A stretch of DNA of 42,718 bases from a virus: positions 1 through 42,718 of the IMG/VR virus record IMGVR_UViG_3300012271_000022. One strand, written 5' to 3'. The first letter of the stretch is position 1. Each line of letters starts with the position of its first letter. The position numbers and the translations under genes are program-made. The notes below the pieces were generated by a model. It searched no databases, had not been told where the DNA came from, and worked only from the letters and a program-made list of their open reading frames with translations. Shown in pieces: positions 18,399 to 41,489 of this stretch.

Positions 18399-19033
18399 GT
18401 CGTTATACAATCACAAGTGATTTAGATAATCAGATCATTAGAACATTAGTGTGCAAACCTGAATGGATAGAGTTACAGGTGAAAGAAAATGAAACTTGCC
18501 ATGACGGTAATTTCCCACATGATGAATTTACATACAACAGTGTTGGTTTTGAACGCAAAGAAACCCTTGATAAAAAATCACTCATACATAAATCGAGTAA
18601 AGAATTATCGATGAACATTATGAAAGAGTTAAAACATGCTGGTATTGCATTGCCGATGCACGATGAATCTATGAGATCAAAAATGCAAGCGAAACGATTA
18701 ATTGATCAAGCTGCAGGTCGCGCTCGTTGCAGATTTGCAAGTCCTGGTAACATGATTGAAGAAGAGTACAATCAAGCTAAACGATTTAGTGTTGCGTTCC
18801 TTTTAGATGATACACAATCAGTCCCACCCATGGTTCAAAGTTGGGCTACAGCATCAAATAGAACACCCGTTGAAGCTGCTCAGAATATTGTAGATACTGG
18901 TGCCGGTTGGGAACGAATACTAAACGTAACCTACGATCTACGACTACGAGGCAAAGCCGCTGTTGATTTAGCAACACTAGAAACTTTTGTATCTGTTGCC
19001 GAAAATTATATAAACCAATTGGATGCTATATGA
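18395..19033 (+). CDS. Tail-fibre associated protein of unknown function
   Basis: The product has 212 residues. The N-terminal 130 residues, helical with DESMRSKMQAKRLIDQAAGRARCR, are not recognised. The last 75, with VPPMVQSWATASNRTPVEAA, then W..ILN and YDLRLRGKAAVDLA, resemble a C-terminal domain often found on phage tail fibres or their companion proteins, having the pattern 'VP..V..WA...G....A...I...A..W......IR..RL.GKAAV'. Position immediately after the hub (4-base overlap) and before lysis genes fits a tail-tip/fibre accessory. Chaperone versus structural role cannot be separated. Confidence 0.6.
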   Translation: MSRYTITSDLDNQIIRTLVCKPEWIELQVKENETCHDGNFPHDEFTYNSVGFERKETLDKKSLIHKSSKELSMNIMKELKHAGIALPMHDESMRSKMQAKRLIDQAAGRARCRFASPGNMIEEEYNQAKRFSVAFLLDDTQSVPPMVQSWATASNRTPVEAAQNIVDTGAGWERILNVTYDLRLRGKAAVDLATLETFVSVAENYINQLDAI

Positions 19034-19398
19034 GAACTGCAGTCAGAACATATTACAAGGATAGAACAGAAAGTTTGATGGAGTTACCGGACGGTCAAGT
19101 AATATCAATATTAGAACGACCATGGTTAGATAATAAACCTTTTGTCTCATGTATCAAAGAGGGAGTCTACAAGGTCAAACGAGATCATACAGGCAAACAT
19201 CGATGGTATAAATTGATGGACGTAGAGGGCCGCACGTTCATTGAGATACACCCTGTCAACTTTGTGTATGAATTGGAAGGTTGCTTAGGTCCATGTATGT
19301 TTATTAAAAATGGTGTAGCACATGATAGCGTTGAAGCATGTCAATTGTTACTTGGTTGGTTTGGTGAAGATGATTGGCTATTGGAGATAAGATCATGA
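19030..19398 (+). CDS. DUF5675 family protein, candidate lysis enzyme
   Basis: This 122-residue protein has the recognisable DUF5675 layout: an N-terminal strand pair, then a 'GVYKV' element (about 46-50), then FIEIHPVNFVYELEGCLGPC (about 74-93) with a conserved His and Cys in an H..N......GC arrangement. That arrangement is reminiscent of L,D-transpeptidase-type catalytic sites, though this is my inference. No lysozyme, amidase or transglycosylase is seen elsewhere in the window. The holin gene begins in its stop (ATGA overlap), so a role in host cell-wall release is likely. A structural or regulatory role is not excluded. Confidence 0.65.
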   Translation: MRTAVRTYYKDRTESLMELPDGQVISILERPWLDNKPFVSCIKEGVYKVKRDHTGKHRWYKLMDVEGRTFIEIHPVNFVYELEGCLGPCMFIKNGVAHDSVEACQLLLGWFGEDDWLLEIRS

Positions 19399-19883
19399 GC
19401 ATTTGGGGTAAAATTTTTGGTACGGACAAACACGTTGAGCAAGGTTTAGGTATTATAGAAAGGGCCGGTGACGCTTTGTTTTATACTGACGAAGAAAAGG
19501 CCAGTGATAGAAACAATAAGGCACAACAAGTACGTCAATTTATAGCTGATTGGATGGAGACAACCAAAGGTCAGAACATAGCGCGTAGAACACTTGCTGT
19601 TGCGATAACTGCTGTTTGGTTAGGCATGTATTGTGTCAGTACTATTATGGGTGTTATATCGCCTTGGGTTGACGCAACCATGCCTGTAAATGAAATGGGT
19701 GTATTGATTGATGGTGCTGCGAGTACGTACCAGAAACTAAAAGCCAGTGAAATATCGCTAGACTTAAAAGCGGATCGAATGAGTGGAGCAGTAATGCTGA
19801 TACTTGCTTTTTACTTTGCTGCCCCACATATGGGTAAAATAGTTGTTGGTGCTATGGAAAAGTTTGGCGGTAAAAAGTCTTAA
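19395..19883 (+). CDS. Holin of the GTA/3TM type
   Basis: From the ATG at 19395 (GGAG at 19383-19386, overlapping the previous stop as ATGA) the product has 162 residues. The N-terminal 55 residues are amphipathic and charged (MSIWGKIFGTDKHVEQGLGI...), as in 3TM holin/GTA holin proteins. Then come RRTLAVAITAVWLGMYCVS, TIMGVIS..., and a C-terminal hydrophobic VMLILAFYFAAPHMGKIVVG. Two to three membrane segments fit a pore-forming lysis protein timing the end of infection. An in-frame start at 19374 lies before the ribosome site and is rejected. Confidence 0.8.
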   Translation: MSIWGKIFGTDKHVEQGLGIIERAGDALFYTDEEKASDRNNKAQQVRQFIADWMETTKGQNIARRTLAVAITAVWLGMYCVSTIMGVISPWVDATMPVNEMGVLIDGAASTYQKLKASEISLDLKADRMSGAVMLILAFYFAAPHMGKIVVGAMEKFGGKKS

Positions 19884-38946: not shown

Positions 38947-39378
38947 TTACCTCAATAAGTATGTGACAAGTTGAAAGGACCAGTATACAGATGAATAGTA
39001 TATTAATGAACCTAATATTGCACGCCTGGCACTGAACGTAAATATATCGCTTTCTTCCATGGACACCAGGCAATGATCATCCTGGTTGATAGCTGTCTTG
39101 AATAACCAATTGACGAACTTAGCTGCTATATCGCCTGTAGTGCTACCCATTAACTGCAGGTGACCTAACATTGATGATATGGTTGTCAAGTGATGACCGC
39201 CCATTATGGCGTGTACATAGTGGTCTTGTGCAATCAGTATTGAATATTGCCAGCGTATTTTTACTAAAAACTGGTCAGTAATGTATGCTATACAAAGGAG
39301 AGGTATTGACATTAATATCAAGGTTCCCCAATTGATACCAATTAAACCAACAAAAACGTATGACCTTAAACGATCCAT
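38947..39378 (-). CDS. Predicted membrane protein
   Basis: The product is 143 residues: an N-terminal hydrophobic helix (FVGLIGINWGTLILMSIPLL), a short gap, a second hydrophobic piece near the C-terminus (AILGSLIYYSSVYWSFQLVT), and a polar middle with GGHHLTTISSMLGHLQLMGS and a TGDIAAKFVNWL helix. It is the first gene of the adhesin block downstream of the terminator at 39427. Holin-like or receptor-exclusion roles are guesses; no family is recognised. There is only a weak candidate promoter ahead of it. Confidence 0.5.
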   Translation of the reverse strand: MDRLRSYVFVGLIGINWGTLILMSIPLLCIAYITDQFLVKIRWQYSILIAQDHYVHAIMGGHHLTTISSMLGHLQLMGSTTGDIAAKFVNWLFKTAINQDDHCLVSMEESDIFTFSARRAILGSLIYYSSVYWSFQLVTYLLR

Positions 39379-39426: not shown

Positions 39427-39454
39427 AAAAAAAAGCCACCTATAAAAAGTGGCT
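39427..39454 (-). terminator. Rho-independent terminator of the HAD/receiver operon
   Basis: Read on the minus strand: AGCCAC, 9-base loop, GTGGCT, then eight T. It lies just past the stop of the receiver-like gene and separates it from the adhesin block. Confidence 0.85.
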
Positions 39455-39481: not shown

Positions 39482-39973
39482 CTAGGACAGTAGGTTGTTG
39501 GAATATTTAGAGTACTTAGTTAATTCATGCTTGTCAACATTATATTTAGCGCACATTAATTTCACGTTGTTTTCAAACCCTTTAAGTTCTTGTGTAATGC
39601 TTGAGGAAAAATCGAGGATCATAATGTGGTCAAGTAGCGTCTGTATTGCTATTGGTTTTTCAATAAAATCTACCACCATTAGTTTTACGCCGGTCATAAC
39701 ATCTTTTACGTTATCGTCTGCAGATAAACAAATGAACTGTATATTTTGAGTTTCAGGGTTGGACCTTACCTGTTTATAAAGATGGTTATCTGCTATCTGT
39801 GGCGATTTAATATCCATGATGATTATACTAGGTTCGTACTCTTTTATCAGAGGTAGTGCAAGATCGCTATCATTCACCTTTCTAAACTCGATACCTGAAT
39901 GCAACAAGGCATCACAGACGACAGACATAGAACCACCGCCAATACCTACCAGTAACACTCGTAAACGTTTCAT
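39482..39973 (-). CDS. CheY-like receiver-domain protein, acidic pocket missing
   Basis: The product has 163 residues. The fold of a response regulator receiver is visible: strand 1 RVLLVG, Asp54 in IIIMDIKSP (the phosphorylation site position), Ser84 in ICLSADD and Lys106 in FIEKP. The acidic pair that normally binds Mg2+ after strand 1 (DD) is replaced by GIGGG, so normal phosphorylation is doubtful and this may be a pseudo-receiver. About 40 C-terminal residues are helical and extra. Phage receivers are rare. It overlaps the coiled-coil membrane gene by 4 bases, and a terminator follows. Confidence 0.75.
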   Translation of the reverse strand: MKRLRVLLVGIGGGSMSVVCDALLHSGIEFRKVNDSDLALPLIKEYEPSIIIMDIKSPQIADNHLYKQVRSNPETQNIQFICLSADDNVKDVMTGVKLMVVDFIEKPIAIQTLLDHIMILDFSSSITQELKGFENNVKLMCAKYNVDKHELTKYSKYSNNLLS

Positions 39974-40290
39974 TGTTTCCCCAATATCTTTAATGTAATT
40001 TCGGTTAACTTAGAGTAGAAAGTATCCACAAACTTCATAAAATCCCTATTAATCACCTTGAAATCTGCTTCAAGTTCTTCTTGGTCTTTTACGACTTTAT
40101 CAATTTTTTCGTTGATTGTCTTTTCTAATTCAGCAATGAGTTCTTTTATCTCTGCCTTGGTCATTGTCTGTGATGTACGTTTCTTTGCTAACTTTCGTTC
40201 TGTGAGTATGTTATTGATCCAGAAACCTATGGGTATAATAACTAAGGCCCATAAATATTTAAACACTTCGTTGTTTTCAAGGCCAAACAC
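39970..40290 (-). CDS. Membrane-anchored coiled-coil protein
   Basis: The product has 106 residues: an N-terminal hydrophobic helix (VFKYLWALVIIPIGFWINNI), a basic patch (TERKLAKKRTSQ), then a heptad-bearing helix of roughly 60 residues (AEIKELIAELEKTINEKI...), i.e. an inner-membrane anchor with a cytosolic or periplasmic coil. The size would also suit an i-spanin-like protein, but the coil carries no obvious partner gene. Its stop overlaps the receiver-like gene start by 4 bases, so a functional pair is likely. Confidence 0.6.
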   Translation of the reverse strand: MFGLENNEVFKYLWALVIIPIGFWINNILTERKLAKKRTSQTMTKAEIKELIAELEKTINEKIDKVVKDQEELEADFKVINRDFMKFVDTFYSKLTEITLKILGKQ

Positions 40291-40352
40291 TAGATACCAT
40301 CCATCGTTGTTATTTTATTGAATGGTATCAGCTTTTTAAACTATGGTCTAAG

Positions 40353-40850
40353 TCATTTCTGTAGACTTGAACAATAACTGTCAACCTGAACCGCTATTAT
40401 CCGTGGGTAGTTGAGTTTGACCATTTCAATGATCCCAGGATGATCGTCAAACAGTATCGCTATACCATCATCTTCCGGTTTAACAATACGTTCCAACATC
40501 CTGTCTTTAAACTCTACAGGTAAATGGTTACAATCCATTTGTCGCATTATTAATCTTTGTCGTTGAAATACATGTTTAGGGAAGTGTATTACTAATTGTT
40601 CTTTGGTTTGTGGTTCGGCGTCTGCCCTTCGACTGGTTAAGAATATTAGCTGCTTGGATGGTCCTGGTATACCCCAATACAATGCTTTGACTTGTGCGAT
40701 AACGTGAAGTATTGGTTTATCATATATAAGACACGCTTCATTAAAAGGTTTCCACGCTGCAGTTGACGACTGTTGGTCTGTTGGTGGTATTAAATGTGCC
40801 CTAGCTCTGTTGTCAAACAATGTACCGTCTAGATCTACTATTATTTTCAT
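40353..40850 (-). CDS. HAD-family phosphatase (PNK 3'-phosphatase / nucleotidase-like)
   Basis: The 165-residue product has the HAD signature DLDGT (D6, D8), motif II FLTSRR and motif IV LFDDHPG, as in PseT-like 3'-phosphatases and 5'-nucleotidases; AHLIPP and KPFNEACLIYDKPI match the PNK-type phosphatase capping region. No kinase half is present. It would remove phosphates from DNA/RNA ends or from nucleotides. It is the first gene of a three-gene minus operon leading away from the repeat-rich non-coding segment. Confidence 0.78.
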   Translation of the reverse strand: MKIIVDLDGTLFDNRARAHLIPPTDQQSSTAAWKPFNEACLIYDKPILHVIAQVKALYWGIPGPSKQLIFLTSRRADAEPQTKEQLVIHFPKHVFQRQRLIMRQMDCNHLPVEFKDRMLERIVKPEDDGIAILFDDHPGIIEMVKLNYPRIIAVQVDSYCSSLQK

Positions 40851-40966
40851 GTGTAACCCGTTAGTTTATCGTAAAAGTAATATTATGATATATTTAAACC
40901 TGTTTGTCACCTTGTATGTTTGGTATTTTTATAGGTATGAATGTGTATAAGCTGCTAGTTTTAAAT

Positions 40967-40998
40967 CCGTCCGAGTACGTCCCAGAATACTAGGACGG
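40967..40998. repeat. Inverted repeat (hairpin 1)
   Basis: CCGTCC-g-AGTA ... TACT-a-GGACGG: a stem of ten pairs with one mismatch around a 10-base loop. It is followed by CTGTA, as is hairpin 2. Confidence 0.75.
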
Positions 40999-41044
40999 CT
41001 GTATGTGTTGGTGTATATGGTCTACAGAGAATTTGACAGGTTTC

Positions 41045-41075
41045 CCGTCCAAGTACGTTTTTTGTACTAGGACGG
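41045..41075. repeat. Inverted repeat (hairpin 2)
   Basis: CCGTCC-a-AGTAC, 7-base T-rich loop, GTACT-a-GGACGG: 11 pairs with one mismatch, the best-formed copy; followed by CTGTA. Confidence 0.8.
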
Positions 41076-41339
41076 CTGTATCCTTTTAACCATATAGCCT
41101 GTAGAGCATCCGTCCTAGGATCTTAGACTTATAGGACAACTTTTTCAGATTATAGTTAATATTTATTATAGTATAGACTATGTATCTATATGAATAATAT
41201 GTATAGTTAAACTGTCTATTAATAGTATATGTAGTAGTTATAATATGTCAGATATATTTAGAAAGTTTCAGAGAGTCGCGATATTCTGGGACGGATGGGT
41301 TTTTTTGGTTGTAAGTTATTGTTATCGTTAAAAAAATTA

Positions 41340-41384
41340 CGTCCTAGTATACTCGGACGGATTAGGACCGTACTCGGACGGATT
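41340..41384. repeat. Palindrome and direct half-site repeats
   Basis: CGTCC-t-AGTATACT-c-GGACG, followed by a second TACTCGGACGGATT copy 21 bases later. Confidence 0.75.
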
Positions 41385-41489
41385 CGATGCAGCCCTAGAA
41401 CCATGTTGGTTTGCTAATTTAAGCACTTTTAACTGTACTAGGACGTACAGTTTGTTATAAATATGTTAATAGGTATGATTAATAGATAT

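Follow-up and report, generated by a model that had tools for sequence, protein, structure and literature searches.

Genes at the Locus

The window, meaning the whole stretch of DNA analyzed here, is 42,718 bases long and is an entire IMG/VR virus record. Terminase, portal, and major head genes are present, which identifies it as a tailed phage. On its minus strand lie three open reading frames, at the positions the first-pass annotation had given them. They code for a HAD-type polynucleotide phosphatase-like protein of 165 amino acids (aa; 40353–40850), a membrane-coil protein of 106 aa with a GTG start (39970–40290), and a stand-alone receiver of 163 aa (39482–39973). The coil gene comes first and the receiver gene second, with an overlap of 4 nt. 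The intrinsic terminator claimed 3′ of the receiver gene was recovered by folding on the minus strand (39434–39454); a 52-nt stretch there folds at −12.5 kcal/mol (z = −2.2), and the terminator is kept in L002, the only close homologue found in IMG/VR.

The earlier description of three coupled genes holds for the coil and receiver genes, which overlap, but not for the upstream HAD gene, whose stop codon is separated from the coil start by a 62-nt gap containing a hairpin. This leader (40291–40352, minus strand) stands out against shuffled sequences. The fold of 40286–40352 reaches −16.9 kcal/mol (z = −3.8), and only 1 of 200 shuffles was as good. The hairpin encloses a Shine-Dalgarno-like GGATGG, and its end adjoins the GTG start of the coil gene. 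A predicted hairpin over the ribosome-binding site makes translational control of the coil gene possible. The leader of L002 is identical to that of the window, so it gives no covariation signal.

The HAD protein matches phrog_415 (phage polynucleotide kinase/phosphatases; E = 9.5e-30) and scores 26.1 bits against Pfam HAD_PNKP, for which the cutoff is 27.6. Its relatives occur in 890 phage records, making it widespread in phages, and among relatives its gene adjoins the coil-receiver pair in L002 only. A three-gene operon that includes the HAD gene was therefore rejected, given the 62-nt gap with its hairpin and the lack of adjacency outside L002, and the HAD gene, which had been counted as part of the cassette, is treated here as separate.

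L002 keeps all three genes in the same arrangement. Its coil protein is 100% identical to that of the window, with 0 amino-acid-changing and 7 silent differences between the genes, and its receiver is 96% identical, with 7 amino-acid-changing and 11 silent differences (dN/dS 0.16); these estimates of selection rest on few differences (18 in the receiver, 7 in the coil). The coil and receiver are taken to be real genes because the differences are silent in the first and mostly constrained in the second. The HAD gene shows 6 amino-acid-changing and 4 silent differences.

Two other features lie close by. Just past the terminator, 38947–39378 codes for a protein of 143 aa that has a hydrophobic segment at its N-terminus and belongs to phrog_3342 (function unassigned); with 6 amino-acid-changing and 20 silent differences from L002, it is well constrained. 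The non-coding region 40960–41450 separates two divergent gene groups and carries about ten half-sites, TACTAGGACGG / CCGTCCTAGTA, in both orientations, some of them palindromic. The arrangement resembles an array of iterons or operators.

The Receiver

The 163-aa protein matches Pfam Response_reg (PF00072) with E = 1.2e-10 and 42 bits (cutoff 30.2). Structure prediction upholds the assignment rather than pointing to a different fold: five strands in receiver order form a (beta-alpha)5 arrangement at a mean pLDDT of 72, with a long last helix (residues 110–143) and one further helix. The listed PDB matches of the predicted structure are receivers, for example RR468, PhoB, and DivK. Like the bacterial single-domain receivers DivK and CheY, it has the receiver fold without an output domain; unlike these and the bacterial pseudo-receivers, it is phage borne and coupled to a membrane-coil gene.

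The residue table bears out what had been noticed from the sequence. Asp54, Ser84, and Lys106 are kept, and Gly10-Ile11 stands where receivers have the Mg2+-binding acidic pair. In receivers, this pair binds the metal ion required for phosphotransfer. A pseudo-receiver has been defined as a receiver in which any one of five residues is missing (Bourret and colleagues, PMC12632262), so the name given earlier to the window copy fits. The five-residue set of a phosphorylatable receiver, made up of two acidic residues, an Asp, a Ser or Thr, and a Lys, is incomplete in the window and L002 and intact in all 11 of the other receivers examined from distinct lineages. Among the receivers examined, the loss thus appears to be private to the window lineage. 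The window receiver also sits on a long branch in the trees. A free receiver tree gives three phage groups, and a single phage clade is not rejected (p-AU 0.76); a single phage origin of the receivers is neither shown nor excluded by the trees.

Some of these proteins have carried names that do not suit them. Identification as PhoB or as a hybrid histidine kinase was considered and rejected, as there is no DNA-binding or kinase domain. The window receiver reaches 40.6 bits against the PhoB model (cutoff 296.2), in the receiver half only. R8W gp48 (153 aa) and PT11-V22 ORF30 (149 aa) are stand-alone receivers, for which the names PhoB and hybrid sensor histidine kinase - response regulator are a misfit.

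The Coil Protein

The window coil protein, recognized from its open reading frame, hydropathy, helix prediction, and comparison with L002, has an N-terminal membrane helix at about residues 9–25 with a basic flank, followed by a long helix. Mean hydropathy is 1.91 over 17 residues, with a charge of −2 in the N-flank and +4 in the C-flank; helices are predicted, with low confidence, at 8–38 and 45–103. A stricter 19-residue hydropathy scan did not flag the membrane helix of the window coil. The membrane segment is modest in the window coil and weak in those of PT11-V22 and PT15-A5. Flank charges predict N-out, C-in for all seven coil proteins examined, so the coil helix is probably cytosolic, where coil and receiver could meet. 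An Rz-type inner-membrane spanin, which would be N-in, C-out with its coil in the periplasm, was considered for the coil protein and is disfavored by this predicted topology. The flank charges of the PT11-V22 spanin are opposite to those of the coils, and those of the PT15-A5 spanin are less clear.

No convincing match to the coil family was found in Pfam, PHROGs, or NCBIfam, and matches to the holin families of Pfam and PHROGs were at chance level. Compared over their cytosolic parts, the window coil and that of R9Y, its closest coil by sequence, align at a score of 66; the maximum was 56 in 3,000 heptad-preserving shuffles, and the best of 1,979 open reading frames from bacterial loci scored 57. 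Further links join R9Y to H4/4 (z = 11), H4/4 to L023 (z = 19), L023 to PT15-A5 (z = 5), and PT15-A5 to PT11-V22 (z = 4). Direct alignment of the window coil with that of H4/4 is not significant, nor is its similarity to the PT11-V22 and PT15-A5 coils on its own. The kinship of the coils rests on this chain of alignments, strong across the window, R9Y, H4/4, and L023 and weaker where it reaches PT15-A5 and PT11-V22. The C-termini are most alike in SKLTEITLKIL (window), ARLTELTMHLL (R9Y), and SRLDDLMLHLM (H4/4).

Distribution of the Pair

When the receiver was used as a tblastn query against 50,697 phage records, the top matches were the Alteromonas phages R9Y1-3, H4/4, and R8W. In each of these, as in the window, the gene for a one-helix coil protein precedes that for a stand-alone receiver with a 4-nt overlap (gp47-gp48 in R8W and gp43-gp44 in H4/4). 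They differ from the window in that the active site is complete; the R8W and H4/4 receivers are about 25% identical to that of the window, and both genes of R9Y1-3 are annotated "hypothetical protein." Later searches added pairs in L010, L011, L015, and L016. The pair of PT11-V22 (ORF29-ORF30) was first reached through a viral fold match, and those of PT15-A5 (gp10-gp11), L107, and L108 followed. In PT11-V22 and PT15-A5 a coil gene again precedes a stand-alone receiver gene, with a gap of 1–2 nt instead of an overlap. The L010 record (IMGVR_UViG_2785511424_000001) also has the length 42,718; the stretch fetched from it shares no 20-mer with the window, and the agreement is taken as a coincidence.

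A scan of genome contigs with the receiver alignment returned mostly ordinary bacterial receivers. Eighty loci from it were screened for a small membrane open reading frame upstream, and L023 (NHBR02000063.1), a marine phage contig binned as Muricauda, held the only convincing pair. Given its tail-spike, receiver-pair, and DNA polymerase genes, it is probably a mis-binned phage. L038, L027, and L024 were read as candidate pairs and rejected. When a coil profile was run on 369 genomes from a single bacterial class, the one match was weak, lay inside a 699-aa open reading frame, and was judged to be chance; as the profile recovers L023 and misses coils of the PT11/PT15 type, absence from these genomes is weak evidence.

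At least six unlike marine phage lineages carry the two genes in this order. They are the window type, the R9Y-type siphoviruses, Foturvirus (Autographiviridae), the L023 type, Myoalterovirus, and Schitoviridae. The first-pass annotation's association of coil with receiver is thus borne out in at least five phage lineages besides that of the window, and the two form a true two-gene unit.

All named hosts of the pair-bearing phages are Alteromonas. Because the terminase of the window phage is nearest to those of Vibrio phages (55%), a restriction of the pair to Alteromonas phages is a lead and not a result. The few non-Alteromonas "phage" matches that were read are bacterial DNA. Bacterial genes flank the receiver in two fecal "Bacteriophage sp." records and in Pseudomonas phage Y1 (MT836384, MT835983, and OQ572403), and these records, filed as phages, are probably bacterial contamination.

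Gene Neighborhood

The cassette had been described as part of no known structural or replication module. This view is not supported for the pair, since its usual neighbors in the relatives are tail-fiber and lysis genes; the pair lies in or beside lysis genes in most of the six or more lineages. For example, in R9Y an endolysin/lysozyme gene (phrog_315) follows directly, and in the Foturvirus phages H4/4 and R8W a holin gene comes before the pair (phrog_1356 in H4/4). In PT11-V22 and PT15-A5, an Rz-like spanin gene (phrog_4297) overlaps the receiver gene. L107 and L108 have this overlap too, and an embedded frame there codes for a lipoprotein-like product similar to Rz1; after the spanin comes a small membrane protein, probably with two helices. 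An endolysin gene is next in PT15-A5, where it is annotated as such, and in L108. The pair stands at the head of what reads as a spanin-holin-endolysin stretch in Schitoviridae and Myoalterovirus. In L023, the next gene after the pair codes for a membrane protein that matches GTA_holin_3TM below the threshold.

Tail-fiber, tail-spike, or fiber-chaperone genes are near the pair in every lineage, the window included. The window pair adjoins tail-fiber-like genes, and candidate lysis genes are far off at 19–20 kb. These are a gene for a DUF5675 protein (19030–19398, plus strand; Pfam PF18925, E = 3.3e-16) and one for a protein with two membrane segments predicted from hydropathy (19374–19883, plus strand); their role in lysis is a guess.

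What the Pair May Do

The reading preferred here, held tentatively, is that the pair works as a receiver module that is tethered to the membrane and acts on lysis. The coil, with its helix facing the cytoplasm, would be translated together with the stand-alone receiver and would hold it at the inner membrane. The state of the receiver would alter the activity of a membrane lysis protein, either the holin of the phage or the coil, and lysis would be held back or released by a host signal. In the relatives, this state would be phosphorylation; the window receiver, which lacks the Mg2+ site, would depend on binding or be fixed in one state. As an analogy, the holin T and the antiholins RI and RIII of phage T4 set the time of lysis, and RIII is cytoplasmic, according to the account in PMC8385771. 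The likeness is only in how the parts would work, with a separate protein acting on a membrane lysis protein, and no kinship is claimed. To our knowledge, the T4 holin and antiholin proteins are not receivers.

Several points count against the lysis reading. The window pair is away from the candidate lysis genes, the predicted membrane helix is weak in the PT11/PT15 coils, and the binding of coil to receiver is presumed. Tail-fiber genes are equally constant neighbors, which means that the order of late genes could by itself account for the linkage to lysis.

A second reading, possible if on the unlikely side, is that of a host-signaling decoy; it takes up the interference with host signaling raised in the first-pass annotation and is, with lysis control, one of the two leading readings. 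The tethered receiver would bind the histidine kinases or response regulators of the host and divert or block the phosphorelay, changing host gene expression during infection; the window copy, without normal phosphate uptake, would be a dominant-negative binder. A receiver without an output domain suits this role, as do the intact five-residue site of the 11 other receivers and the Asp, Ser, and Lys kept in the window and L002, and membrane anchoring would put the receiver near membrane kinases. However, the decoy leaves the repeated lysis-gene neighborhood unexplained. The gene order in the relatives tips the preference somewhat toward control of lysis.

The constant presence of tail-fiber, tail-spike, or fiber-chaperone genes could also be taken to indicate superinfection exclusion or a role at the receptor, in which a late membrane protein keeps out a second phage or modifies the receptor and the receiver is its partner. 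This is rather improbable, since phage tail-fiber genes often adjoin lysis genes in any case and a cytosolic receiver would be an odd part of such a system. Models of defense systems gave only weak matches. It is more doubtful still, and quite improbable, that the receiver of the window lineage is decaying and without function. The acidic pair is gone and the tree branch is long, but the frame is open, Asp, Ser, and Lys are kept, dN/dS against L002 is low on small counts, and the coil protein is unchanged.

Least probable of all, and largely refuted, is an auxiliary metabolic gene, coding for a regulator like PhoB or a hybrid histidine kinase and of benefit when nutrients are limiting, as in the published listings of R8W g48 (annotated PhoB; PMC8228385) and V22 CDS-30 (annotated histidine kinase/response regulator; PMC7289586), because the receivers, at 147–163 aa, have no DNA-binding or kinase domain and that of H4/4 matches the PhoB model at 3–116 of 226 only (76.8 bits against the cutoff of 296.2).

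Meaning for Alteromonas Phages

The receiver domain is already known, and stand-alone phage receivers have been annotated before. In the open-access papers searched, no description was found of the coil-receiver pair or of any connection between it and lysis genes, and nothing turned up on phage receivers tied to lysis. The receivers of these phages have so far been filed singly as metabolic genes. The recurring coil partner and the lysis neighborhood, in at least six lineages, suggest that they belong to a single common module that has a role of its own.

A broader picture, unlikely as it stands, is that unrelated Alteromonas phages share a two-component-style control of lysis, in which a coil-tethered receiver reads host kinase signaling and gates the holin or spanin, and that one lineage has become independent of phosphorylation. 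The isolates H4/4, R8W, R9Y1-3, V22, and PT15-A5, which grow on culturable Alteromonas, offer a system for the question of host two-component signaling and lysis timing, and the window phage is a natural variant without the metal site for phosphorylation. The recurrence of the pair, most often among lysis genes, suggests an undescribed signaling-type control on lysis.
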